This document shows positions 568 to 14,147 of a stretch of 64,000 nucleotides of DNA, piece by piece; the first letter of the stretch is position 1, and each line of letters starts with the position of its first letter. The position numbers and the translations under genes were made by a program. Source of the DNA: Thalassospira xiamenensis M-5 = DSM 17429 (GTDB taxonomy: Bacteria > Pseudomonadota > Alphaproteobacteria > Rhodospirillales > Thalassospiraceae); the NCBI RefSeq assembly GCF_000300235.2, contig NZ_CP004388.1:1841501-1905500 (forward strand), read 5' to 3'. The notes under the pieces are model-generated. The model saw only the letters and a list, made by a program, of their open reading frames with translations, was not told the DNA's origin and searched no databases.

Positions 568-1863
568 ATGACCAATGTTGCCGTGATCGGTTCCCAATGG
601 GGGGACGAGGGGAAAGGCAAGATCGTCGACTGGCTGTCCGAACGGGCAGACGTCGTTGTGCGTTTCCAGGGCGGTCATAACGCCGGTCATACTTTGGTGA
701 TCGACGGAACGACCTATAAGCTTAGCCTTCTGCCGTCGGGCATTGTTCGCAAGAACAAGTTGTCGGTTATTGGTAATGGCGTTGTCGTTGATCCGTGGGC
801 GCTTCTGACCGAGATTGACCGCCTTAAGGGGCAGGGCGTTGAAATCACGCCGGAAAACCTGCGCGTTGCAGAAAATGCCTGTCTTATTCTGCCGCTGCAC
901 GGCAATCTGGACAAGGCACGCGAAGCCGCGGCAACCGGCAACAACAAGATCGGTACCACCGGTCGCGGGATCGGCCCGGCATATGAAGACCGCGTTGGTC
1001 GCCGTGCGATCCGCGTTGGTGATCTGGCCGATGTCGAGCTTCTTGAAGCCAAGGTCGAAAACCTTCTGACCCATCATAATGCGCTTTTGCGCGGTCTGGG
1101 CCAGCCGGAAGTCGACGGTGCGGAACTGCTTGCGCAGCTTAAGGAAATCGCACCGAAAATCCTGCCGTTCTCGGACACAGTCTGGAAATCGCTTAACCAG
1201 TTCAAGGAAGCCGGTCAGCGTATTCTGTTCGAAGGTGCGCAAGGCACGATGCTGGACATCGACCACGGTACGTATCCGTTTGTGACCTCGTCCAATACGG
1301 TTTCGGGACAGGCTGCAGCCGGTTCTGGTATGGGCCCGTCGGGGGTCGGTTATGTTCTGGGGATTACCAAGGCATACACCACACGTGTCGGCGAAGGCCC
1401 GTTCCCGTCCGAACTGTTTGACGCGGACGGCGAACGTCTTGGTGAACGCGGTCATGAATTTGGTGTTGTTACCGGGCGTAAACGTCGTTGTGGCTGGTTT
1501 GATGCGGCTCTTGTCCGTCAGTCGGTCAAGGTTAACGGCATTACCGGTATTGCATTGACCAAGCTTGATGTTCTTGACGGTTTCAAGGAAATCAAGATCT
1601 GCACCGGCTATGACATTGATGGCAAAATCTATGACCATCTTCCCGCCAACCAGCGTCTTCAGGCCAAAGCCAAACCGGTTTATGAAATCATTGAAGGCTG
1701 GTCTGAAACCACGATGGGCGCGCGCAGCTGGGCTGATCTTCCGGCGGCGGCGATCAAATATGTCCGCCGGATCGAAGAACTGATCGAGGCACCGGTTGCG
1801 TTGCTGTCTACCAGTCCGGAACGTGATGACACCATTCTGGTTCATGACCCGTTCAGTGCATGA
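568..1863 (+). CDS. purA: adenylosuccinate synthetase
   Basis: PurA catalyses GTP-dependent ligation of IMP and aspartate to adenylosuccinate, the first committed step to AMP, in the cytoplasm. The 431-residue product has the usual family length and starts [18 protein letters not shown], with the GDEGKGK loop at residues 12-18, followed by [34 protein letters not shown] and [10 protein letters not shown]. The start at 568 follows a good AAGGAG ribosome binding site. It lies 36 bp after hisZ and is closed by an intrinsic terminator. A long open frame on the opposite strand across this gene is a coding shadow. Confidence 0.98.
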
Positions 1864-1886
1864 TCCCGTGCATGAATGAAAATGCA

Positions 1887-1916
1887 AAAAGCCACCGGTT
1901 TTTCCGGTGGCTTTTT
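1887..1916 (+). terminator. intrinsic terminator after purA
   Basis: A perfect hairpin (AAAGCCACCGG, T5 loop, CCGGTGGCTTT) ends in a T run, 23 bp after the purA stop. It should end the hisZ-purA transcript and isolate the kinase-like gene downstream. Confidence 0.9.
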
Positions 1917-2089: not shown

Positions 2090-4216
2090 ATGGCACAAGA
2101 AGCGGAAATGCAGAAACAGGATGTTTCCGACGGCGCTGACGAACAGGCTGCCGCAGCGGATAATAAAGATACCATGCCTTCCCCTGCAGGTTTGGGCGGC
2201 GAGGACCCAACTGCGTTGGGTAGTGGTGGACGGAGTATCGAGGTTGGTAATTTCCGGGTGTTTTCAGATCTGCGGCTTCCGGAATACGATATGGGAAATT
2301 GCAAGGCCTACGCTGCGGATAACCTGCGCCGTGAAGAAGGTGGCGCCTTTGCTCTTGTAACTGATCCAGCAATACCGACGCGCTACGATCTAATGCGCTT
2401 TTTGACCGGTGTCCATATCGGCGGGCAGATTGATCTTCTTGATCACGAAATTGCGCCTTGGCCACCGTTTGACCAAAAAACCATGATGCTTTTCTATGAA
2501 AAGCCTGCAGGCGGACGTGTGCTTGTACCGGGTGAAAAACAAAAAAAGATAGATGAGCATGATTTCTCAAAGATTGTAATTGAGCCCCTGCTGAATGTGC
2601 TGCAGGCGGTAGCAGAAAAGGGGCTAACCCATCGTAATATTCGCGCGGACAATCTGTTCTTTGAAGGCCCAATGGCAGAGAAAGTCGTTGTTGGGGATTG
2701 TTGCTCTGCTCCTGGAGGGTTCAACCAGCCTTTAGTCTACGAAACTATATCGCGTATGACAGCTGATCCAGCTGGACGCGGTTTGGGGTCGGTATTGGAT
2801 GACTTGTATGCGCTGGGCATGACAATTGCGGCTCTTGGTATCGGGCACACACCGCTCGAAAAGCTGCGTGAGCAGGACATTATTGATGTCAAACTGTCCA
2901 AAGGTTCTTTCCAAGCTATTGTAATGAATGAAAAACTGCCTCTGGTGTTGATTGAACCCGTGCGCGGTCTTTTGTGTGATGATCCCGAAGAGCGTTGGGG
3001 GTTTTCCGAATTGCATGCTTGGCTTGACGGCAGGCGGGCCAAGCCAGTGCAATCCAACACCGAACGTCGGGCTGCACGCTCCCAAAATATTTCGGGAAAA
3101 GATTATTATACCGCGCGGTCGTTGGCGCAGGGGATTGCAAAAAACTGGATTAATGCACTCGCCCCACTAAAAGATGGAGCCGTTGAAACTTGGTTGCGAC
3201 GTGGGCTGTCAGATAACGACAGGGCCAAGCATATGGCTGAGGCAGCCCGGCAATTGCAATGGGCGGGAGCAGACAAGAGGGCTGCCGAAGATATCCTAGT
3301 CGCTAAATCCATCATTATTCTTGATCCGACCGGAGCTATTCGTTTCAAGGGGTTCTCTGCGATGGTTGACGGGTTGGGGACTATGTTGTCTTACGACGTA
3401 CAGCACGGGCGCGGGCCTCAACGGTTTGCTGATGTGGTAACGCGGGATATCCCTGCTTTCTGGTTCGGGCGACAAGTCGGATATAACCCGGAAGTCCAAA
3501 AATTGCAGCAGGCATATAAGAACCTTAGATACTATGTGCAGCAGCAAAGTGCGGGGTATGGCTATGAGCGCTGCCTTTATGCGATGGTTCGTAACCAGCA
3601 TTGCCTTAGCCCGATGATAGAAAAGAGTTATGTCGTTAACATAGAGCAGCTTTTACCCGCACTGGAAAAAGCTTCGGAATCGTTACCTGATGATGCATGG
3701 CCAATTGATCGGCATATTGCAGCTTTTATTGCAACCCGCCTTGATGACGATGTTGAACCCCAACTTCTGGCGTTGCAAAATCCGTCAGATGAAGTCGAAT
3801 ACAGTCGCGCAATCATTAGCATGCTGGCACTTGTGCAATGGCGGCATGGGCCTGATAATCTGCAAAATCTGTCGCACTGGGTGGCCCGGTTGATGGAACC
3901 CGCGGTCAAGGTGTTTCACAGCAAGGCACGTCGGGAACGTGTTGAACACGAAATTCCGAAACTGGCCAAGCGCGGCAATCTTGTCGAACTTTACAATCTG
4001 ATCAATGACGAACAGGAACGCCGGAAGGATCAGACCGAATTCATCACCGCGGTCGAGGAATATTCCGAAGCAGAAAGCGAGGTTTTTGACCTTGAATCAT
4101 CAGGCCCCGCACGACTTGAACTGGCAGAAAAAGTTGGCCAGCAGGCAGCAGCCTTTGCGTCGACCATGATTGCGCTACTGACGGTTTCGGCGCTATTTCT
4201 GATGCATATGTGGTAG
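2090..4216 (+). CDS. membrane-anchored protein-kinase-fold protein, probable pseudokinase
   Basis: The 708-residue protein has a divergent serine/threonine-kinase-like domain at about residues 50-320. The catalytic-loop counterpart reads HRNIRADNLFF (181-191), so the HRD aspartate is Asn. The DFG position reads VGD (201-203), and I see no clear beta-3 lysine in the AFALV strand. The helix-F signature DLYALGMT (239-246) is intact, which supports the fold. Residues 330-680 are an unrecognised helical region with a charged segment near 640-680. A hydrophobic C-terminus (about 685-708) should be one membrane anchor, leaving the kinase-like part cytoplasmic. Codon use between about 2.3 and 3.7 kb is visibly more AT-rich than in neighbours, which may mean relaxed constraint or transfer. 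The next gene starts 9 bp after the stop, so the two are probably one unit. ATP binding or phosphotransfer is not supported by the residues seen. Confidence 0.7.
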   Translation: MAQEAEMQKQDVSDGADEQAAAADNKDTMPSPAGLGGEDPTALGSGGRSIEVGNFRVFSDLRLPEYDMGNCKAYAADNLRREEGGAFALVTDPAIPTRYDLMRFLTGVHIGGQIDLLDHEIAPWPPFDQKTMMLFYEKPAGGRVLVPGEKQKKIDEHDFSKIVIEPLLNVLQAVAEKGLTHRNIRADNLFFEGPMAEKVVVGDCCSAPGGFNQPLVYETISRMTADPAGRGLGSVLDDLYALGMTIAALGIGHTPLEKLREQDIIDVKLSKGSFQAIVMNEKLPLVLIEPVRGLLCDDPEERWGFSELHAWLDGRRAKPVQSNTERRAARSQNISGKDYYTARSLAQGIAKNWINALAPLKDGAVETWLRRGLSDNDRAKHMAEAARQLQWAGADKRAAEDILVAKSIIILDPTGAIRFKGFSAMVDGLGTMLSYDVQHGRGPQRFADVVTRDIPAFWFGRQVGYNPEVQKLQQAYKNLRYYVQQQSAGYGYERCLYAMVRNQHCLSPMIEKSYVVNIEQLLPALEKASESLPDDAWPIDRHIAAFIATRLDDDVEPQLLALQNPSDEVEYSRAIISMLALVQWRHGPDNLQNLSHWVARLMEPAVKVFHSKARRERVEHEIPKLAKRGNLVELYNLINDEQERRKDQTEFITAVEEYSEAESEVFDLESSGPARLELAEKVGQQAAAFASTMIALLTVSALFLMHMW

Positions 4217-4225
4217 GGGACAGGA

Positions 4226-4702
4226 ATGGCGAGACAATCAGGCGGCCGTAAAAAGAAAAGCGCATTTTCCGGTTTGTCGGTGGTGGCTTCTGCCGTGCTT
4301 TTGTTCATGGTTGCGCTACCGACATTCATTACCCTGGCGGTTGGGCTGTTACCATCAATGGTGGCGTTCATGTTTGACCGCAGTCAGGGGCGCACCATGT
4401 CGCGCTGCATTTTTGGTCTGAATTTTTCAGGGGTTGCGCCCTATATCATGGAAATCTGGCAGCAGGGCGGGCAGACGGCCAGTGTGGCAACTCAGGAAAT
4501 TTTCCAACCCGTTGCCCTGTCGATCATGTATGGCTCGGCCGGTCTTGGATGGCTTTTGTATCTGGCGATGCCACCGATTGTCGCCAATGTGCTTAATCTT
4601 TCGGCCCAGCGCCGTGTTTCTGAATTGCGTAAAAGGCAGCGTGGTTTGATCAAAACCTGGGGCGACAGCCTGATCAAGGAAATCGACCGTTCAGGCAGTT
4701 AA
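4226..4702 (+). CDS. small polytopic membrane protein, partner of the kinase-like protein
   Basis: A 158-residue protein I do not recognise. A basic N-terminus (RQSGGRKKK) precedes a long hydrophobic stretch (about residues 17-50, probably two helices) and a third hydrophobic segment at about 105-130, followed by a basic C-terminal tail rich in Arg, Lys and Gln. Its start is 9 bp after the kinase-like gene, whose own C-terminus is a membrane helix, so the two products may form one membrane complex. That is inference from position only. Confidence 0.65.
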   Translation: MARQSGGRKKKSAFSGLSVVASAVLLFMVALPTFITLAVGLLPSMVAFMFDRSQGRTMSRCIFGLNFSGVAPYIMEIWQQGGQTASVATQEIFQPVALSIMYGSAGLGWLLYLAMPPIVANVLNLSAQRRVSELRKRQRGLIKTWGDSLIKEIDRSGS

Positions 4703-4733: not shown

Positions 4734-4763
4734 AAAAAAAGCGGCGGACAATTTGTCCGCCGC
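4734..4763 (-). terminator. intrinsic terminator of rpoH
   Basis: An 11-bp perfect inverted repeat (GCGGCGGACAA / TTGTCCGCCGC) with a one-base centre is flanked by seven A on the plus strand. Read on the minus strand this is a GC-rich hairpin followed by a U run, 38 bp past the rpoH stop. The stem may also slow plus-strand transcripts. Confidence 0.88.
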
Positions 4764-4800: not shown

Positions 4801-5667
4801 TCACATCGGCAGATCGGTGTGGATCGATTTGCGTACTTTTTCAAAGGCCCGAACTTCAATCTGACGAATGCGTTCGCGCGATATTCCGTATGCAACGCTG
4901 AGATTTTCAAGCGTTACAGGTGAATCGAGCAGGCGGCGCTGGGTCAGGATGTCACGTTCACGTGCATTCAGGTGTGACATCGCACTTTTCAGCAGATTCA
5001 TGCGCTGGACAAATTCCTCGCGCTTGCCATACAGGGTTTCCTGATCTTCATCTTCGCTTTCGATCCAGTCGACCCATTCACCGTCACCATCAATACGCAC
5101 TGGCGCATTCAATGAGTGATCCGGCCCAGCGAGACGACGGTTCATCATGATCACGTCATCTTCGGTGACGTTAAGTTTTGTGGCGATGAATTCGACCTGT
5201 TCCGGTCGCAGATCGCCTTCGTCAATCGCCTGCATCTGGCTTTTGAGTTTCCGAAGATTGAAGAAAAGTTTTTTCTGGGCGGCAGTGGTACCCATTTTCA
5301 CCAGCGACCAGGAATGCAGGATATATTCCTGAATTGCGGCGCGGATCCACCACATCGCATAAGTCGCAAGGCGGAAACCTTTGTCCGGGTCAAAGCGCTT
5401 GACCGATTGAAGCAGGCCTACATTACCTTCGGAGATCAGTTCGTTTATCGGAAGTCCATAACCGCGATAGCTCATGGCTATCTTGGCAACCAGCCGCAAA
5501 TGACTTGTAATCAGCTTTTCTGCGGCAGTTGCATCATCATTGTCACGGAATTCACATGCAAACGTCGTTTCCTGTTCAGGTGTAAGCATGGGGTAACGGC
5601 GGATGCGCTGCAAATAGACTGTCAGACCATCTTGGGAGATGATTGGAAGTGCATTTCCCTGTTTCAT
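4801..5667 (-). CDS. rpoH: RNA polymerase heat-shock sigma factor sigma-32
   Basis: RpoH directs RNA polymerase to heat-shock promoters. The 288-residue product has region 1.2/2 (GLTVYLQRIRRYPMLTPEQE), the region 2 core (ISEGNVGLLQSVKRFDPDKG then LATYAMWWIRAAIQEYI), the RpoH-specific box QKKLFFNLRKLK, and region 4 (GISRERIRQIEVRAFEKVR). The length fits the family. It lies 111 bp downstream of rluD on the minus strand with its own sigma-70-like promoter in that gap, so it can be expressed apart from rluD. Many alphaproteobacteria carry two rpoH paralogues and I cannot tell which this is. Confidence 0.96.
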   Translation of the reverse strand: MKQGNALPIISQDGLTVYLQRIRRYPMLTPEQETTFACEFRDNDDATAAEKLITSHLRLVAKIAMSYRGYGLPINELISEGNVGLLQSVKRFDPDKGFRLATYAMWWIRAAIQEYILHSWSLVKMGTTAAQKKLFFNLRKLKSQMQAIDEGDLRPEQVEFIATKLNVTEDDVIMMNRRLAGPDHSLNAPVRIDGDGEWVDWIESEDEDQETLYGKREEFVQRMNLLKSAMSHLNARERDILTQRRLLDSPVTLENLSVAYGISRERIRQIEVRAFEKVRKSIHTDLPM

Positions 5668-5778: not shown

Positions 5779-6780
5779 TCAAACTATCCCAATGGGTAGG
5801 TCTAGGCAGGTGATGAGTTCCTGTAGGTCTTCCGGGAGGGGGGCTTTGGTGAGGACGTAATTCCCTGTTTTTGGGTGTAAAAATCCCAGTGTTCTGGCAT
5901 GTAGCGCCTGTTTTTCAAAGCCCGTCAGGACCTCGTGCACATGCTTGCTGAACTTCTGGGTAAGTTTGCTTCTACCGTAAACTGGATCACATATAAGTGA
6001 GTGACCAAGATGGGTCATGTGAACGCGAATTTGATGTGTTCTGCCAGTCAAAAGCCTGCATTCAACAAGAGATGCCAACGAGTCGTCGCGTTTTGCCAAA
6101 ACCTTGTAACGCGTAAGGGCCGGTTTTCCCCCATTTCGAAGTACCGCCATCTTCTTTCTATTGCGCGGGCTTCGGCCGATATTTCCCTCTATGACGCCTT
6201 CGATTTGGCGCGGGACACCCCAAACAACGGCGATATAAGCGCGTTCGATATTTTCCTTATCCTCGGAAAACAGGGTCGAAAGTGCCCGATGGGTTGCATC
6301 GTTCTTCGCGACCACCATTGCCCCACTGGTGTCTTTGTCGAGCCGGTGCACGATACCCGGGCGCTTCACGCCGCCGATCCCCGACAGGCTGTCACCACAA
6401 TGGGCCAGCAAAGCATTGACCAATGTACCGCTTTCATTGCCCGCAGCAGGATGAACAACCATCCCGGCGGGTTTATTGATCACCAGCAGATCGTCGTCTT
6501 CATAAAGGATATCGAGCGCGATTTTTTCGGCGATTGGGTCGGCCGCCACTGCGGGTGGGATTTCAAGCGCAAAGCGGTCGCCACTTTTTACCTTGTATGA
6601 CATCTTGGCGATCGGCGTGTCATTCAGCAGCAGATGTCCGTTCTCAATCAGGCTTTTGATGCGCGAACGGGATTGCTCGGGCCATGCGGTTGCCAGAACC
6701 TTGTCGAGCCGCGCTCCCTCGTCAGCGGGAGAGGCAATATATTCAAGATGTTCGGTGTTCAAGCCGCTTTCCATATTCAT
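5779..6780 (-). CDS. rluD: 23S rRNA pseudouridine synthase, RluD type
   Basis: The enzyme isomerises uridines in helix 69 of 23S rRNA (positions 1911, 1915 and 1917 in E. coli). The 333-residue protein has an N-terminal S4 RNA-binding domain (residues 22-65, RLDKVLATAWPEQSRSRIK) and the RluA-family catalytic domain with HRLDKDTSG at 145-153; Asp148 is the expected catalytic residue. RTHQIRVHM and a GHSLICDPVYG block follow in the expected order. rpoH is 111 bp downstream on the same strand. The symbol rluD rather than rluC rests on the helix-69-type architecture and length and is not certain. Confidence 0.9.
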   Translation of the reverse strand: MNMESGLNTEHLEYIASPADEGARLDKVLATAWPEQSRSRIKSLIENGHLLLNDTPIAKMSYKVKSGDRFALEIPPAVAADPIAEKIALDILYEDDDLLVINKPAGMVVHPAAGNESGTLVNALLAHCGDSLSGIGGVKRPGIVHRLDKDTSGAMVVAKNDATHRALSTLFSEDKENIERAYIAVVWGVPRQIEGVIEGNIGRSPRNRKKMAVLRNGGKPALTRYKVLAKRDDSLASLVECRLLTGRTHQIRVHMTHLGHSLICDPVYGRSKLTQKFSKHVHEVLTGFEKQALHARTLGFLHPKTGNYVLTKAPLPEDLQELITCLDLPIGIV

Positions 6781-6987
6781 ATCTGCTGCTATTCTGGCCT
6801 GCTATGACCGTCACTGTCCGTTAAAGGGCGGTTTTAATCGCTTACTGATGAAATGCAATCCCGCTTTGCAAACTTGCAATTGGCTTCTCTTGTCGCTATG
6901 GCCTTCAATATCGTCCTGTCAGGCCTGTTGTGATCTTAGCGTGACGCAAGACAGGGGCATTCTATCAACTTATCAATCGGAAATGTG

Positions 6988-7353
6988 ATGCGCGTTATCA
7001 AGATTCTGGTCGCTTTTATGGGAGTGCTGATCGTTGCGGGCGTCGCACTTGTGGTTTATGGCCTGTCGCGTCAGGAAGATGGCAGCGTTGCATCCGATGG
7101 GCCTGAGCTATCCGCGCCGATTGCGGGGCAGTTTGAGACGCCAACAGATACAGGCCCACGATCCGCAACACAGATCGCACCGTTCGGAACGATCAATGTT
7201 GATTTGGCACCGGGGGAGACCTTGGTTGATTTTTCCCGTCAGGGAACAGAGGCAACTCTTCGTCTTGAGGGACGCCAAGGAAGCCGTCTGGTGATTGTTT
7301 CTTTGCGTGACGGCGCTATTCTTGGGCAGATTTTACTGGTGGAGCCGCAATAA
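6988..7353 (+). CDS. single-pass membrane protein, small conserved alphaproteobacterial family
   Basis: A protein of about 121 residues with one N-terminal membrane helix (residues 3-27) and a periplasmic or soluble domain of about 90 residues rich in beta-forming sequence (ETLVDFSRQGTEATLRLEG...SRLVIVSLRDGAILGQI). A GTG at 6985 directly precedes the ATG at 6988; both are in frame and the ATG is preferred. It resembles the short DUF6476-type proteins encoded beside rluD in other alphaproteobacteria, an assignment made from memory of that family and not certain. The JAMM peptidase starts 26 bp downstream. Confidence 0.65.
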   Translation: MRVIKILVAFMGVLIVAGVALVVYGLSRQEDGSVASDGPELSAPIAGQFETPTDTGPRSATQIAPFGTINVDLAPGETLVDFSRQGTEATLRLEGRQGSRLVIVSLRDGAILGQILLVEPQ

Positions 7354-7379
7354 GCACCGCTTGAACTGATGGTGGTTTG

Positions 7380-7832
7380 ATGATCGACGCGGGTAAAATC
7401 ATAAAACTGCGGACAGGTTTGCTGGCAGAGATTTCAGATATCGCAGCTGCGGCATGGCCGGAGGAATGCTGTGGTCTATTGATTGCCGACGCGGAAAGTC
7501 CCGAAGTTATTCTGCGTTTTGTTGCAGCACGCAATGCCGCCATCGATCGCCAAAAAACATTCGAAATTGATCCGCACGTTCTGATTGCGACGCATCGATC
7601 GGTTCGGCAACGCGGAGAGGCGATTATCGGATGCTATCATTCACATCCGAATGGCGATTGCCAGCCATCGAAAACCGATTTGTCCCGCGCCGAAGAAGCC
7701 GGTTTTCTGTGGCTGATTTTCGCCACCGGCAAAAACGGCGTTGATGAATGGAAGCTATATCGCCGGATGCCGGAACGTGCCGATGACACAGCACCGCGTT
7801 ATTTCAAAACTTGTGAGATCGTCGAGCCCTGA
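7380..7832 (+). CDS. JAMM/MPN+ family (M67) metalloprotease or deconjugase
   Basis: Stand-alone prokaryotic JAMM proteins are zinc peptidases, some acting on ubiquitin-like sulphur carriers or cysteine-biosynthesis carrier proteins. Here the full motif is present: Glu28/29 in WPEECCGLL, HSHP with His87 and His89, Ser97 and Asp100 in CQPSKTD, so the enzyme should be active. At 150 residues it is only the MPN core. I chose the ATG at 7380 over the TTG three bases upstream. It ends one base before the convergent glycosyltransferase gene. No ThiS/MoaD-like or E1-like gene is nearby to suggest the substrate. Confidence 0.85.
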   Translation: MIDAGKIIKLRTGLLAEISDIAAAAWPEECCGLLIADAESPEVILRFVAARNAAIDRQKTFEIDPHVLIATHRSVRQRGEAIIGCYHSHPNGDCQPSKTDLSRAEEAGFLWLIFATGKNGVDEWKLYRRMPERADDTAPRYFKTCEIVEP

Positions 7833-9026
7833 TCATTGCTTTGCCATGCGTTCGATCAGGCCAGTCTGCTTTGCAAGTGATTGTTGAAGCGCGAAGTTTT
7901 GCGTGATTGTCCGGCGCGCCAGCTGGCGTATTTCGCGAAGCCGGTCAGGATTGGCCAATGCTTCGGCCATTGTGCTGGCAAGCTGGTCTTCATTCCAGAA
8001 GCCACACATTAATCCATTCCTGCCATGACGAATGATATCGCGGCAGGGGCCCGTGTCCGATGCGATCACCGGCGTTCCGCATGCCATGGCTTCAAGTACC
8101 GACCATGACAAAACAAACGGATATGTCAGATAGACATGGGCCGAACTGATCTGAAACAGACGGATCAGCTGATCGTGGGGGATTTGCCCTAGAAAGACGA
8201 TGCGAGAGGGATCCATACCGGTTTCAGCCATCATCGCATCACGCCATTTCTGGCCGTCGGCGCGCGGCGTTCCATAACTGACGCCATCCCCCCCGGCGAT
8301 GACAAAGGTTACATCGGGGTTGTGCCGGGCCAGCTTGGCAGCGGCACGCATGAATTGTGGAAAGCCGCGATAGGGTTCGAGATCGCGTGCAACATAGGTC
8401 ACTATCGGATCGCCATGTCGCAGCACACGACCGTCGGGCAGGCGAAGCAGTGCCTTGTCGTCCGGACGGCAACGATGGATATCGATGCCATCGTGGCAAA
8501 TACCGATCTTGTTATGGAAGCTTTGCGGAAAGGCGGCTTTCTGCCATGCCGTGGGGCTGATCCCGGTGTCTATTGCTTCCAGACTTGAAAGCTGTGCAAT
8601 GTTGCGCAGCCGAAGTTGTGTGCGTTTGGCCAAGGTCACCGTTTCTGTCGGGTCAAAGCCGACATCGCGACCTTCGGCGTGGTAAAAATGTTCGCAATAG
8701 CCAACCAGTGGTGTTTTGCGCAGGACATCGCGCGCAAACATCATGCTGCCCCAGCCGATATGCCCGTAAACGATGTCGGGTGGGCCTTCCTGTGCGACGA
8801 GTGAATCAAGTGTTGTCGCCGCATGCATGCCGATCTGCTGGTGATATTGTGGAAATGGGGTCGCAGGCGGTGGCGGAGTTGCCCGCTGACGCAGGACGCG
8901 AATGCCGGGAAGCTGTACGTTCATTGCTTCGCAAAGGAAGGAAACCTGCCATCCGGCATTTGCCAGATGACAGGCCAGGTGAACAAATTGTCCCGGTCCA
9001 TGGCGGTGGACAAAGACAATTTTCAT
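7833..9026 (-). CDS. glycosyltransferase family 4
   Basis: A 397-residue GT-B enzyme that should transfer a sugar from a nucleotide-sugar donor, probably in surface polysaccharide assembly. The N-terminal half begins MKIVFVHRHGPGQFVHLACHL with a Rossmann start; the donor-binding half has VTYVARDLEPYRGFPQFMRAA and the E-x7-E region SVLEAMACGTPVIASD. Its ATG overlaps the stop of the upstream MarR-type regulator (ATGA), so the two are translationally coupled. Substrate and linkage are unknown. It points away from the secretion and glycan operon that starts at 9.85 kb but probably belongs to the same region. Confidence 0.88.
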   Translation of the reverse strand: MKIVFVHRHGPGQFVHLACHLANAGWQVSFLCEAMNVQLPGIRVLRQRATPPPPATPFPQYHQQIGMHAATTLDSLVAQEGPPDIVYGHIGWGSMMFARDVLRKTPLVGYCEHFYHAEGRDVGFDPTETVTLAKRTQLRLRNIAQLSSLEAIDTGISPTAWQKAAFPQSFHNKIGICHDGIDIHRCRPDDKALLRLPDGRVLRHGDPIVTYVARDLEPYRGFPQFMRAAAKLARHNPDVTFVIAGGDGVSYGTPRADGQKWRDAMMAETGMDPSRIVFLGQIPHDQLIRLFQISSAHVYLTYPFVLSWSVLEAMACGTPVIASDTGPCRDIIRHGRNGLMCGFWNEDQLASTMAEALANPDRLREIRQLARRTITQNFALQQSLAKQTGLIERMAKQ

Positions 9027-9523
9027 CGGCGACTGCGAAGCTCGTGTGTCATAACGCCACTTGTGACGGGGACACCGCCATACCGAAGGGTCTGTGTCCA
9101 GAATTCCTCCAGGCGACGCAAAGTTCGAAGTGCCGTTTCCATTTCCTGCTGGTCCTGCAGGTCATTGGTCAGTGCGTTGTGATATTCTTCGTGAAATTCA
9201 TGCAGGGATTCACAAAGTTCGTGCCCCTTGCGCGTCAGTTTTATTCTGGCAGACCGTCGGTCACGGGCCATGACATGTCGTTCGACATAGCCCGATTCAG
9301 CCAGCTGTTTCAGATTATAGGATGCATTCGATCCCATATAGTGGCCGCGATCCAATAGATCACGTACCGACAGTTCATCGTCGCCGATGGTAAACAGCAA
9401 CGCGACTTGTGCGGGGCTGATGTCATCTTTGCCGAGTCGAATAAGATCTACACGAAGCAGATCAGCAAAACGCCGATAAATACGCTCGACGGTATTTGCA
9501 AGTTCAAGATGAGTGACGGTCAT
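9023..9523 (-). CDS. MarR-family winged-helix regulator
   Basis: A 166-residue regulator with the MarR fold: a helix bundle (MTVTHLELANTVERIYRRF...), a wHTH region (SPAQVALLFTIGDDELSVRDLLDRG then YNLKQLAESGYVERH) and a wing DRRSARIKLTRKG. A longer frame begins at 9646, but its first 41 residues are low-quality sequence outside the fold, so the ATG at 9523 is chosen. It is divergent from the type I secretion genes with 326 bp between, which contain repeated AT-rich half-sites, and is coupled to the GT4 gene downstream. Control of the secretion/glycan region is likely but inferred. Confidence 0.82.
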   Translation of the reverse strand: MTVTHLELANTVERIYRRFADLLRVDLIRLGKDDISPAQVALLFTIGDDELSVRDLLDRGHYMGSNASYNLKQLAESGYVERHVMARDRRSARIKLTRKGHELCESLHEFHEEYHNALTNDLQDQQEMETALRTLRRLEEFWTQTLRYGGVPVTSGVMTHELRSRR

Positions 9524-9665
9524 GTTGTTTGATCCGTTATCTGGTCCCAAGCGAGAGTTGATGCCATGGCCTTTCGACCAAGGCAGGCCTTTCGTGTGGG
9601 GAAGATAACAGGACGTTGCTCTTGAACGATTTTTCCGCACGCCCAATTCTTCCCTCAGTTTGCTC

Positions 9666-9712
9666 GTAATTTCGAAGTAATTTCAAAGTATTTTTATTTT
9701 AAAATTACTTCG
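9666..9712. promoter_or_regulatory. candidate operator between marR-type gene and secretion operon
   Basis: Two tandem 11-bp units, GTAATTTCGAA (9666-9676) and GTAATTTCAAA (9677-9687), overlap an 11-bp perfect inverted repeat, CGAAGTAATTT (9673-9683) and AAATTACTTCG (9702-9712). The block sits 143 bp upstream of the MarR-type start and about 140 bp upstream of the ABC gene. Within the 326-bp gap this is the only strong repeat structure; the rest is AT-rich with a weak TCATGAACATGA palindrome near 9738. Confidence 0.5.
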
Positions 9713-9849
9713 TATTCTTCTGTTTTTACATTGTCAGATCATGAACATGAGATCGACATATTTGATTTTATTGTAGATCATCATGACATCGCAACTATGT
9801 GATTAGATTGCGGAAAAACTATGACTTTTGGCTGATTGGATGAAAATCA

Positions 9850-11640
9850 ATGCATTTTGGTCGTAAAAACACGCCAAAAACCGCAGAAAGCAAAGCTGTC
9901 AGACCATCTCTGGATGCAAAATCGGTTATCCGCGAGGCGAGATTCACTTTTGTACGCGGTCTTGGATGGGCCGGGGTCTTGAGTGGCTTTATCAATGTTC
10001 TGCAACTGACCGTGCCGCTTTTCATGCTTCAGGTGCATGATCGCGTGATTAACAGTCAAAGTACCGATACGCTTAAATTGCTGCTCGCAATTGCGATTGG
10101 TGCCATCATTCTATACGGCATTCTTGATTTCATTCGGGCCCTTATCTTTCAGGAAATGGCCAAATCATTGTTGCGTCGCCTGAACTTGCCGGCCATTTCG
10201 GCGGCAATGAGCGTGGCGCTTGAAAAAGGATCGATACAGGGCACGCAGGTTCTGCGCGATTTGTCGGATTTGCGCAATTTTATCAATGGCAATACCATCA
10301 GTGCGCCACTCGAAGCGATCTGGTCGCCGATTTTCCTTGGTGTGATGTTTGCCCTTCATCCGTTTTACGGTATTGCGGGGCTTGTGGCGGTGCTGGTCCT
10401 GATCGGGCTTAGTCTGTTGGGTGATTTGCTTGTGCGACAGATCACCAAGGAAGGCACCGATGCCAATCTGCGTAATATCGGCGATATCGGGTCAACCGTA
10501 TCAAATGCCGAGGCGATTGAGGCAATGGGCATGTTACCTGCACTTGCCATGCGCTGGCGCCAATCGCAGGTCCATGCCAGTGAGTTGCTTGATATCGGGA
10601 ATGTCCGAAGTAAAGGCATGTATTCTGTCACGCGCTCGGCCCGTTTCGGCATGCAGATTTGCGTGCTGGCGATGGGGGCGTATCTGGTTATTCTGGGGGA
10701 AACAACACCTGGGGCGATGATTGGCGGTACGATTATCATGGGCCGTCTTCTGTTGCCGTTTGATAATGTTACGCGCGACTGGCGGGCGTGGGTTTCTGCT
10801 CTTTCGTCATGGAAACGCATCCGGAATATCCTTGAGGAGCGTCAGTCGGAGCGCGAAATCGAACCGACACCGCGTTCCGAAGGGCCGCTTGTTGTCGATA
10901 ATCTTGTATATGCGGTCCCCGGCTCGAACGTGCCGGTTCTTCGCGGGGTGAGCTTCGATCTTAACCCGGGCGAAATTCTGGGCGTGGTCGGGCCGTCGGC
11001 TGCTGGTAAATCGACCCTGTCGCGTCTGCTGGTCGGATCGGCGAAACCGACTGCTGGCGGCGTATTTCTTGACGGGCATAGCACCTATCTTTGGGAGCGC
11101 GGTTCGTTTGGCAACATGGTCGGTTATCTGCCGCAATCCGTTTCGCTTCTGAACGGCACCATCCGTGAAAACATTGGTCGCATGCGTGAAGCCAATCCGC
11201 GCAAGGTGATTGATGCGGCCCGCGCAGCCGGGGTGCATGAAATGATCGGCCGACTGCCACTTGGTTACGATACGCCGATCGGGGCGGGGCGACATACCCT
11301 GTCTGGTGGACAGCAGCAACGCATTGCACTTGCCCGTGCTCTTTATGGCTGGCCACGTCTTCTGGTGCTTGATGAACCCAACGCCAACCTTGATGCTGAA
11401 GGTGAAGCATCACTGATCCGGGCGGTCCGTCAGGCAGCAGAAGGTGGGGCAATGGTTGTTCTGATCGCACACCGGCAAAGCATCATGCAATACGCCCACA
11501 AGCTGCTTGTCATGCAGGAAGGGCGGGTCAAACAGTTTGGTGAACGCACCAATGTGATCCGGGCGATGACGCAGGATGATAACGACATCAAAAACCTGCC
11601 CCCGGTTAAGCGCAATCAGCAAAGCGGGGGGGCAGCATGA
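9850..11640 (+). CDS. type I secretion system ABC transporter/permease, PrtD type
   Basis: Inner-membrane ATPase that energises one-step export of RTX proteins together with a HlyD-family adaptor and a TolC-like outer membrane channel. The 596-residue product has about six membrane helices in residues 40-310 and a C-terminal ATPase with Walker A GPSAAGKST (381-389), signature LSGGQQQRIALAR (484-496) and Walker B LLVLDEP (504-510). It lacks an N-terminal C39-like domain, as in PrtD/RsaD/PrsD. Start ATG 9850. The adaptor gene overlaps the stop by 4 bp, and an RTX substrate gene follows. No TolC gene is in the window, so the outer-membrane partner must be encoded elsewhere. Confidence 0.93.
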   Translation: MHFGRKNTPKTAESKAVRPSLDAKSVIREARFTFVRGLGWAGVLSGFINVLQLTVPLFMLQVHDRVINSQSTDTLKLLLAIAIGAIILYGILDFIRALIFQEMAKSLLRRLNLPAISAAMSVALEKGSIQGTQVLRDLSDLRNFINGNTISAPLEAIWSPIFLGVMFALHPFYGIAGLVAVLVLIGLSLLGDLLVRQITKEGTDANLRNIGDIGSTVSNAEAIEAMGMLPALAMRWRQSQVHASELLDIGNVRSKGMYSVTRSARFGMQICVLAMGAYLVILGETTPGAMIGGTIIMGRLLLPFDNVTRDWRAWVSALSSWKRIRNILEERQSEREIEPTPRSEGPLVVDNLVYAVPGSNVPVLRGVSFDLNPGEILGVVGPSAAGKSTLSRLLVGSAKPTAGGVFLDGHSTYLWERGSFGNMVGYLPQSVSLLNGTIRENIGRMREANPRKVIDAARAAGVHEMIGRLPLGYDTPIGAGRHTLSGGQQQRIALARALYGWPRLLVLDEPNANLDAEGEASLIRAVRQAAEGGAMVVLIAHRQSIMQYAHKLLVMQEGRVKQFGERTNVIRAMTQDDNDIKNLPPVKRNQQSGGAA

Positions 11641-13019
11641 ACCGAGTGATCAATGTCGACAACCGTGGCGAGGTCATGATTCCCGAAGACCCGCAACCAG
11701 CATGGTATCAGGTCCTTGACGAAGAGCGCACCGCGTCGCGTCAAAGCCTGCGAAAGCCGATCATGGCGGGAATCATCGTTATTGCCGTCGGGTTTGGCGG
11801 CTTCTTTTCCTGGGCTTTTACGGCCGAACTCGACAGTGCTGCAGTGGCATCGGGCTCTATCATTGTTGATTCCCGCAAAAAGGTTGTGAACCATTTCGAA
11901 GGCGGCATTTTGAAGAAGCTGCTGGTTGAAGAAGGTGATCGCGTCAAGGCGGGGCAAACATTGATGTTGCTGGATGGAACACGCAGTGAGTCCGAGTTGG
12001 GCCAGCTGCGCGGTGAACGATATGGGCTTATCGCCAAGCTTGCCCGACTTCGCGCGGAGCAAAGTGGCCGTGGTGAAATCGATTTTCCCGAGCAAATACT
12101 GAATGCGGAGCAGGATTATGTGGCCGATATCTTGCTGGATGAAAAGCGATTGTTCGGCAAGCGCAATGAGGTTTACGATGCCAAGCGAAATGCCCAAGCC
12201 AAGCAAATAGAACAATTTGATGCCGAGGCGCGCGCACTGGAATCCCAGATAAATGCCCGCACCCGTCAGGAAAAGCTTGTTGCCGAGCAGCTCAAGGGCA
12301 TCAGGCAGCTTGCGGAAAAGGGCTTCGCGACGCGTACCCAGTTGGTCGAGATAGAAAACAACTGGTCTGACCTTGTCGGGGATATGGGCGAGTTCAAGGC
12401 CCAAAAAGCCGCCGCCGAACAGCAAAAGGCTGAGGCCGAAATCAATCTTGCCTCGATTGAAATGGAATGGCAAAGCGATATCGCGACAGAAATCCAGGAA
12501 GCGCAACTGGCACTGAATGATGTGACCCAGCGTATCCGCGCCAGCGAGGATGTTCTGAACCGGCGCGAAGTCAAGGCACCGCAGGACGGTATTGTTGCCA
12601 ATATTCAGATTCGCACGCCGGGTGGCGTGATCAGTCCGGCGGAACCCATCATGGATATCATCCCGGAAAACGAGCCGCTTCTGATCGAAGCCATGATCAA
12701 CCGTCAGGACATTGATTCGGTTCATGTCGGATCAAAAGCCCAAATCAAGCTTACGGCATATAGTCAGCGCCGGTTGGCACCGCTTGACGGCGAAGTCCGC
12801 TATGTTGCCGCCGACCAGACGGTCGATGAAAAACGCGATTCTTCCTATTACATCGTTCGGGCCGCAATTAACCCCGATGCATTGGCAAAACGCGATGATA
12901 TCGAAATTCGACCGGGTATGCCGGCCGACATTCTGATCCTGAAATCCCCCAGAAGGGCGATCGACTATCTGATTGATCCGATCACTGAAAGCATGAGCAG
13001 GGCCTTCCGCGAGGACTGA
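11637..13019 (+). CDS. type I secretion membrane fusion protein, HlyD/PrtE family
   Basis: Periplasmic adaptor linking the ABC exporter to the outer-membrane channel. The 460-residue product has a short cytoplasmic N-terminus, one membrane helix at about 43-63, a first lipoyl half (GSIIVDSRKKVVNHFEGG then VEEGDRVKAGQ), a long coiled-coil hairpin (about 120-300, rich in Glu, Ala and Gln), the second lipoyl half (VKAPQDGIVANIQIRTPGGV) and a C-terminal beta-barrel. The ATG overlaps the ABC gene's stop (ATGA), showing coupling. A weak terminator follows at about 13.04 kb, before the separately promoted RTX gene. Confidence 0.93.
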   Translation: MNRVINVDNRGEVMIPEDPQPAWYQVLDEERTASRQSLRKPIMAGIIVIAVGFGGFFSWAFTAELDSAAVASGSIIVDSRKKVVNHFEGGILKKLLVEEGDRVKAGQTLMLLDGTRSESELGQLRGERYGLIAKLARLRAEQSGRGEIDFPEQILNAEQDYVADILLDEKRLFGKRNEVYDAKRNAQAKQIEQFDAEARALESQINARTRQEKLVAEQLKGIRQLAEKGFATRTQLVEIENNWSDLVGDMGEFKAQKAAAEQQKAEAEINLASIEMEWQSDIATEIQEAQLALNDVTQRIRASEDVLNRREVKAPQDGIVANIQIRTPGGVISPAEPIMDIIPENEPLLIEAMINRQDIDSVHVGSKAQIKLTAYSQRRLAPLDGEVRYVAADQTVDEKRDSSYYIVRAAINPDALAKRDDIEIRPGMPADILILKSPRRAIDYLIDPITESMSRAFRED

Positions 13020-13042
13020 TTTTTGCTGATGCTGCGGGTGCG

Positions 13043-13077
13043 AAGGCCACGGGCTGAAAGGTCTGCGGCCTTTTTCT
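13043..13077 (+). terminator. possible terminator after the HlyD-type gene
   Basis: AAGGCC (13043-13048) and GGCCTT (13067-13072) can pair and are followed by a T-rich tail (TTTTTCTTTG). The stem is short with an 18-base loop, so it may be leaky. Confidence 0.45.
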
Positions 13078-13182
13078 TTGAATTATTGTTCAAAAGTAAA
13101 ACTAAATAAAAATCAAAAAAACAACAAATACTTATTAAATAAATCTAGAAGTATAATGTGATTATTGCCTTAATCCATAATA

Positions 13183-13211
13183 TTGACACAATAAAAACAC
13201 GAGAATATCTT
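13183..13211 (+). promoter_or_regulatory. sigma-70 promoter of the RTX gene
   Basis: TTGACA (13183-13188) and TATCTT (13206-13211) with an exact 17-bp spacer lie inside a very AT-rich block (about 13080-13240). Transcription should start near 13218, giving a leader of about 135 nt before the RTX start codon. The AT-rich DNA upstream could act as an UP element or bind a nucleoid protein. Confidence 0.7.
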
Positions 13212-13246
13212 CCTAAGATAAAAGAAAAGAATATAGGGTTGCTGTG

Positions 13247-13313
13247 TGGCCGATCTCAGGGTGGCCTCTAGCTGCCTTGAGGGAACGGCCAGCCTCTCGT
13301 GAGGGGATAACCC
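13247..13313 (+). promoter_or_regulatory. structured 5' leader of the RTX mRNA
   Basis: TGGCCG/CGGCCA (13247-13252 with 13286-13291) encloses CTCAGGG/CCTTGAG (13255-13261 with 13275-13281), forming one long hairpin. It is followed by CCTC-TCGT-GAGG (13293-13304) and a GGGATAACCC-type stem. An ideal AAGGAGG ribosome binding site (13341-13347) lies just downstream, five bases before the ATG. This is a candidate mRNA-stabilising or regulatory leader; it matches no riboswitch family I know. Confidence 0.45.
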
Positions 13314-13352
13314 CCGCGATGTCAATAATGTTGGGACACGAAGGAGGATACC

Positions 13353-14147
13353 ATGGCAACTCTCGAAGGCGGCGCCTTTGATGATGCGCTTCTAGGGTCT
13401 CGTTTCAGCGACGTGATTTTCGGACGTGGCGGTGACGATACAATCTTCGGACAAGGTGATGACGATGTTCTGTTCGGTGAAGAGGGCGATGACGTTCTGT
13501 TCGGCGGCGCAGGAAACGATGTCGCGATTGGTGGCGAAGGTGACGATATCCTGTTCGGTGGATCGGGTGACGATGTGCTGATGGGGGATTCCGGCAGCGA
13601 CCTGTTGATAGGTGGCTCTGGCGAAGACGTACTGTCAGGTGGTGCCGGTGACGACACCCTGCTTGGCGGTTCGGACAATGATGTCCTTGATGGTGGCGCA
13701 GGCGATGATCTTATGGTCGGCGGTGGCGGCGATGACATCATGCTGGGCGGTGCAGGCGACGATCAGTTGCTGGGCGGTTCTGGGGACGATGTTCTCCAGG
13801 GTGGCGATGGCAATGACGTCCTGCTTGGCGGCTCCGGGGACGATGTCCTTGACGGTGGTGCCGGGGACGACCTGCTGGTCGGTGGCTCGGGTAGCGATAC
13901 CTTTGTCTTCACCGGTGGCGGCGGCAACGACGTCGTGCTCGACTTCACGGTTGGTGAAGACATGCTTTCCATTAGCAGCAACATCAATGATACCGGCATT
14001 GAAAGTGCCGATGATATTGCCGCGCGTGCATCGCAGGTTGGCGCCAATACTGTTATCGACCTTGGCAATGGGGATTCCATCACCCTCAACAATGTCGATG
14101 CAGAAGACGTCCAGGACAATCCGGATAGCTTCTTCAGCGTCCAGTAA
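13353..14147 (+). CDS. small RTX calcium-binding protein, likely the type I secretion substrate
   Basis: A 264-residue acidic protein with about 18 consecutive RTX nonapeptides (consensus GGxGxDxLx) from about residue 24 to 185, which should fold as a calcium-filled beta-roll outside the cell. No enzymatic or binding domain is attached. Residues 186-264 ([12 protein letters not shown]...[17 protein letters not shown]...) match the C-terminal type I secretion region. It follows the ABC/HlyD pair and has its own strong promoter, a structured leader and a perfect AAGGAGG site, so high expression is expected. By analogy with RapA-type or S-layer-type RTX proteins it could be a matrix or surface-coating protein bound to the polysaccharide made by the downstream genes; that role is inferred. 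Confidence 0.9.

Follow-up and report, generated by a model that had tools for sequence, protein, structure and literature searches.

The present study concerns a pair of genes in a 64,000-nucleotide stretch of DNA (hereafter the window) from the chromosome of a Thalassospira strain with a 4.77-Mb genome. The first gene, PK, encodes a protein whose closest named records are from Thalassospira (82–97% identity), and it is followed after 9 bp by a small gene for a second protein, here called the partner (Table 1). The original prediction of a basic membrane partner 9 bp downstream agrees with the 17 K/R against 7 D/E residues of this protein, counted by eye, and with its two hydrophobic segments; a simple hydropathy scan gave two to five such segments among 34 relatives, and no Pfam or NCBIfam match was obtained for the partner. 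The convergent sigma factor gene downstream occupies a position that is annotated rpoH in Azospirillum thermophilum. Terminator-like hairpins at 1886–1916 and 4741–4763, both from a consensus scan and not functional evidence, suggest that PK and its partner form a separate transcription unit. Elsewhere in the window (7377–7832), near rpoH and rluD, lies a gene for a JAMM/desampylase-like protein (NCBIfam desampylase, 1.3e-19, under the cut-off), and relatives of it were also seen near PK in several further loci with a home-made gene caller.

Table 1. Genes, protein regions and predicted hairpins of the PK locus, in window positions.
Feature	Positions	Strand	Basis
purA, conserved neighbor upstream	568..1863	+	Pfam; purA ≤2.5 kb upstream in 36/60 loci
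Terminator-like hairpin, purA/PK gap, 13 pairs	1886..1916	. (- strand reported; A/T runs both sides)	Consensus scan
PK (membrane-anchored pseudokinase), 708 aa, ATG start	2090..4216	+	ORF; orthologues in relatives and class genomes
Kinase-like N- and C-lobe, about residues 49-316	2234..3037	+	Profile vs solved kinases; hhalign
HRN in place of HRD, residues 181-183	2630..2638	+	Alignment of 72 relatives
G-D-C, DFG equivalent, residues 202-204 (D203 at the DFG-Asp position)	2693..2701	+	Profile-kinase alignments
Post-kinase region, about residues 317-680, mostly helical in a low-confidence model	3038..4129	+	Model, profile alignment
Signature GxGxERxxY...CxS...DRHxxAF, residues 489-546	3554..3727	+	Conservation in 72 relatives
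C-terminal hydrophobic anchor, residues 687-705	4148..4204	+	Hydropathy
Partner, basic membrane protein, 158 aa, ATG start	4226..4702	+	ORF; polar C-tail conserved around LxxEWG (KTWGD here)
Terminator-like hairpin, partner/rpoH gap	4741..4763	-	Consensus scan
Sigma factor, rpoH by place and relatives, convergent neighbor downstream	4801..5667	-	Sigma-70 domains

The kinase homology of PK is faint in the single sequence and clear in the family. PK alone scored 20.5 bits against Pfam Pkinase, where the cut-off is 31.7, and 25 of 35 PK family members had a Pkinase match at E ≤ 0.01. A profile of the 35 members matched solved kinases at E 1.6e-9 over both the N- and the C-lobe, and comparison of the PK family profile with an alignment of bacterial kinases by hhalign gave a probability of 99.6%. 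Of the kinase organization that had been proposed to extend over 700 residues, the lobes and the helix-F Asp (D238, 72 of 72 relatives) stand, but the kinase-like part is only about 270 residues long and residues 317–680 are a separate region. The domain at the C-terminal end of PK had no family match in Pfam or NCBIfam. AlphaFold2 models were of low confidence, with a pLDDT of 34.5 for PK and 51.2 for the partner, from five-sequence alignments that held the window sequence and four close relatives (L060-L063, 83–97% identical for PK). Two candidate assignments were rejected: a lanthionine synthetase (LanL), for which the NCBIfam match covered the kinase part only and scored 34 bits where the cut-off is 650, and a defense role, for which PADLOC had nothing matching the partner and only weak matches of PK to generic kinases (best E 1.8e-4). 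A search of viral contigs for further PK relatives found none.

Conservation was scored in 72 relatives, taken from 97 unique sequences (132 rows) by excluding any that shared 80% identity or more with one already chosen, as well as an intact kinase, L131, that is described below. None of the 72 has Asp at the catalytic position (residue 183), which carries 11 residue types: A in 29, N in 13, S in 11, G in 7, R in 4, T and C in 2 each, and E, K, Q and M in 1 each. The preceding His181 is kept in 68 and Arg182 in 54, and R302 and W303 are each found in 71. The missing catalytic Asp, judging from this alignment, is a trait of the whole PK family, and the HRN of the window protein is nothing special, since the position is free to vary while the fold stays. 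The original prediction had named conservation of the motif in orthologues as a check on its pseudokinase reading, and that reading is borne out, as is the substitution of HRN for HRD. It had also noted the lack of an evident ATP lysine, which holds in that Lys occurs at the VAIK-equivalent position in 1 of 72 relatives, the register there being less certain than elsewhere. The VGD that it had taken for the DFG position, on the other hand, is out of register: in the profile-kinase alignments D203 of G-D-C, and not V201, takes the place of the DFG Asp.

The best match to the PK profile from outside the family was L131, from a genome of the same phylum and another class (G239), at E 3e-29. The match spans both lobes, continues to about PK residue 470 and ends before the PK signature, such that PK has this much in common with an active kinase. 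L131 has HRDIKPGN, DFG and a VxLK lysine, whereas PK is without an intact catalytic set, and it adjoins a PP2C phosphatase and an AAA-type ATPase (the latter labeled by eye) where PK pairs with a small membrane protein. The wider L131 cluster (L155, 8988–17699, G239) comprises the intact kinase, the PP2C phosphatase, an FHA-like/zinc-ribbon protein, two formylglycine-enzyme-like membrane proteins, the AAA-type ATPase and a radical-SAM-like protein, and adjoins CRISPR type I-like genes; Pfam confirms the kinase and PP2C, and the remaining labels were given by eye. The next-best matches, L132/L159 and L135/L160, fit the DLHK pseudokinases of PMC12599244. L159 reads AVLT, HRDLRPST and GFG at the kinase motifs and contains DUF4011 and DNA2-like helicase domains. 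Its gene (6461–13561, G362) encodes a 2366-residue DLHK-type protein with a kinase-like domain, DUF4011, a DNA2-like helicase and an MTES_1575 nuclease, and it is a strong match (3e-139) to the PADLOC candidate PDC-S37.

A maximum-likelihood tree was built over 271 columns from 24 PK sequences (the window protein and a random 23), L131, L159 and 14 other kinases retrieved in searches with either the PK profile or L131 as query. Support was 100% for the branch that separates PK from every other kinase and 98% UFBoot for the one that sets PK, L131 and L159 apart from the 14 others, which places PK together with an active kinase and a DLHK protein. The tree is unrooted, and the direction of catalytic loss is one that we infer. 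According to PMC12599244, DLHK proteins keep the HRD Asp, have no membrane segment and are often fused to a DNA2-like helicase or DEAD-like domain. PK resembles them in its catalytic-loop Arg, in the changed Lys and DFG, and in a common stretch beyond the C-lobe, into which the matches to both L131 and the DLHK-type relatives run. It differs from them in the loss of the HRD Asp, in its anchor, in having another C-terminal domain and in its membrane partner, and no PK member (0/35 at E ≤ 0.01) had a helicase match. In PMC12599244 the GLW family has GLW in place of HRD, where PK mostly keeps His and Arg, and the CP1 family has a linked COG3899 domain and no membrane region, where PK has an anchor and, by Pfam, no such domain. 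Membership of PK in DLHK, GLW or CP1 was thus rejected on the features compared. EssB/YukC of type VII secretion, likened here by description alone, is like PK a membrane pseudokinase, with a scaffold role (PMC12599244, section 4), but belongs to Firmicutes and a secretion locus; EssB does not occur among the 60 listed of 496 solved chains in the profile comparison. The MviN pseudokinase domain (ActPs3) of PMC12599244 is also carried on a membrane protein; it is mainly actinobacterial, is fused to MviN and has an HRD loop that reads Lsidhpsr, and so is without the H, R and N kept in PK.

The association between PK and its partner is close. In a sample of 192 genomes of the class Alphaproteobacteria, strong matches to PK and strong matches to the partner coincided in 67, about one in three, with neither in 125 and none alone; a Fisher test on this co-occurrence ignores shared ancestry, and the count leaves aside weak matches, from 7 genomes for PK and 2 for the partner, that were attributed to generic kinases or noise. 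With the weak matches kept, 68 genomes had both, 6 had PK only, 1 had the partner only and 117 had neither. The partner adjoined PK in 63/63 loci of a first set, which includes 25 Thalassospira loci from genome search and 4 named Thalassospira records, which in part represent the same genomes, and in 56/60 loci of a wider set by profile (55/60 by tblastn) that overlaps heavily in genomes with the first. Among the four wider loci lacking it by profile, two (L073, L077) are second PK copies, with no partner beside L077, in genomes whose other copies (L072, L076) have one; in a third (L124) the partner is elsewhere in the genome, and in the fourth (L068) a divergent-looking membrane ORF, seen by eye, overlaps the end of PK. 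The pairing claimed in the original prediction is thus well upheld. In one of the 67 class genomes with both (G227) the two are on separate contigs. In 41 relatives PK was found in 38 and the partner in 39. A phylum sample of 199 genomes gave full-length PK matches in the class only (5 genomes), the rest being partial kinase matches. These data describe a genuine pseudokinase family that is conserved and constantly accompanied by its membrane partner. Because the pair is missing from 125 of 192 genomes it answers no universal need; because it is kept jointly in about a third of them, it is a working membrane component, probably non-phosphorylating, and not a decayed gene. We found no description of the PK family, or of a role for it, in the literature searched, as the original prediction had supposed, but the 42-family classification cited by PMC12599244 may hold the family under another name. 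Nothing in these results points to a ligand, signal or output for the membrane sensor role first suggested for the pair.

We favor, with moderate confidence, the reading that PK is a non-phosphorylating membrane scaffold that works with its partner. As a cytoplasmic protein, PK would be tethered to the inner membrane through its C-terminal anchor, and the membrane spans and basic cytosolic ends of the partner would join it there, in physical contact, as one membrane complex. The anchor had been proposed from the outset and corresponds to a hydrophobic segment that stands about 370 residues from the kinase lobes and recurs in 31/35 PK members, with none detected in 4. In such a complex PK would transfer no phosphate by the normal mechanism, its kinase-like lobes would serve for structure and docking, and the main functional surface, binding or presenting a presumed client at the membrane, would be the family-specific C-terminal domain with its invariant residues (Tyr/Cys/Ser/Asp/His). 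In favor of this reading are the loss of the catalytic Asp across the family, the purifying selection on PK, its pairing with the partner, and the retention of structural residues and of the C-terminal signature where the catalytic position varies; EssB/YukC offers a precedent for a scaffold of this type.

Alternatively, PK could act as a non-canonical enzyme or as a sensor of nucleotides, binding ATP or another nucleotide through R185, N188 and D/E203 for sensing or for another type of transfer, as in SelO (AMPylation) or SidJ (glutamylation). This is possible but doubtful. Arg185 is kept in 63 of 72 relatives and Asn188 in 68, and residue 203 is acidic in 62 (D in 32, E in 30); the latter two could reflect retained metal or nucleotide binding. 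The related DLHK proteins, moreover, have an Arg in the catalytic loop and are modeled to bind ATP through arginines (PMC12599244, section 13). However, the Lys of the VAIK position is absent from 71/72 relatives; ten relatives have Pro (7) or Gln (3) at residue 203, and Asn188 is lost in 4, which an enzyme would tolerate poorly. The scaffold reading places the weight on the C-terminal domain, and here too an enzymatic alternative arises, in which C505, S507, D540 and H542 form an enzyme active site or a metal or ligand site and the kinase lobes only regulate it. The strictest positions of the protein besides D238 all lie in this domain (Y497 and C505 in 72/72, D647 in 71, S507 in 70, D540 and Q583 in 69, H542 in 68), in a part of PK outside the match to the active relative L131. 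Against this, the domain matches no family and the region as a whole has a mean conservation of 0.40 compared with 0.52 for the C-lobe, and we consider an enzyme or ligand site there improbable.

The home of the pair is the slot between purA and rpoH. In tblastn searches within 2.5 kb of PK at 60 loci, purA was found upstream in 36, rpoH downstream in 31 and both in 26. Of the 125 genomes that lack PK, 26 were examined for this junction; 21 gave a purA match, and 11 of those 21 have rpoH facing purA at a distance of at most 1.6 kb. Such sites without the pair indicate that it occupies an old junction and is missing there in some lineages. The wide spread of the pair fits repeated loss, while as an alternative history the pair may have been transferred into the slot. 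RpoH is the heat-shock sigma factor, and its gene standing convergent downstream in 31/60 loci could mean that the pair works with RpoH. That is very unlikely, given the convergent orientation with a terminator-like hairpin between, the lack of rpoH in the 2.5 kb downstream of PK at 29 of 60 loci, and the 11 genomes in which purA faces rpoH with no pair.

Allosteric regulation of active kinases is a frequent role of pseudokinases, and PK might by analogy regulate an active Hanks-type kinase. Among the 35 PK-bearing genomes searched, a hand-picked subset, 19 had no Pkinase match above the Pfam cut-off, and regulation of a canonical kinase is therefore unlikely as a general role. The sole Pkinase match of the window genome, under the cut-off, is an ORF that we take from its sequence to be UbiB-like, and overall we give this explanation very little probability indeed. 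That PK is simply a decaying kinase gene, as its lost catalytic residues and one stop within the match in a good related genome (G029) might indicate, can be set aside, as PK matches occur in 34/34 good related genomes, 33 of them without a stop inside the match, PK is under purifying selection (dN/dS 0.033 at an unsaturated dS of 0.53, against the 97%-identical L060; 0.076 for the partner in the same comparison), and it is conserved across the class together with its partner.

Beyond the scaffold reading, we would suggest only tentatively, as a picture that is itself rather unlikely to hold in full, an unrecorded and probably ancestral alphaproteobacterial membrane system. In it a pseudokinase, related most closely among the sampled proteins to the PP2C-linked active kinase and the DLHK-type pseudokinase, would have become the regulatory partner of a new C-terminal domain whose Tyr/Cys/Ser/Asp/His site is invariant; it would work only with a dedicated small membrane protein and, in many genomes, would have no canonical kinase as a counterpart. 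Few studies have addressed bacterial pseudokinases, and PK is a clean case, with no catalytic Asp in any of 72 relatives and a matching partner across 192 genomes. It can also be compared with a relative whose catalytic motifs are intact, and its invariant residues form a sharply defined set. Provided that deletion and complementation of the pair succeed in a laboratory strain of Azospirillum or Thalassospira, the part played by a non-catalytic kinase fold at a bacterial membrane becomes directly testable.

Several loci depart from the usual single pair. One genome (G154) carries two PK-partner pairs in tandem. Homologues occur on five Azospirillum plasmid records, and of two inspected one lies between purA and rpoH and the other in a different setting; two Azospirillum homologues are annotated as serine/threonine protein kinase, a label that is probably wrong. 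The partner family also has additional members that adjoin no pseudokinase, in settings that are otherwise unrelated, in two genomes (L151, L152 and L153 in G052; L157 in G167), and because of these paralogues the partner may have other uses. Second, divergent PK copies (L077 in G121, L075 in G076) stand among large, related repeat-protein-like ORFs, which form a cluster (c15) of genes called with the home-made caller.
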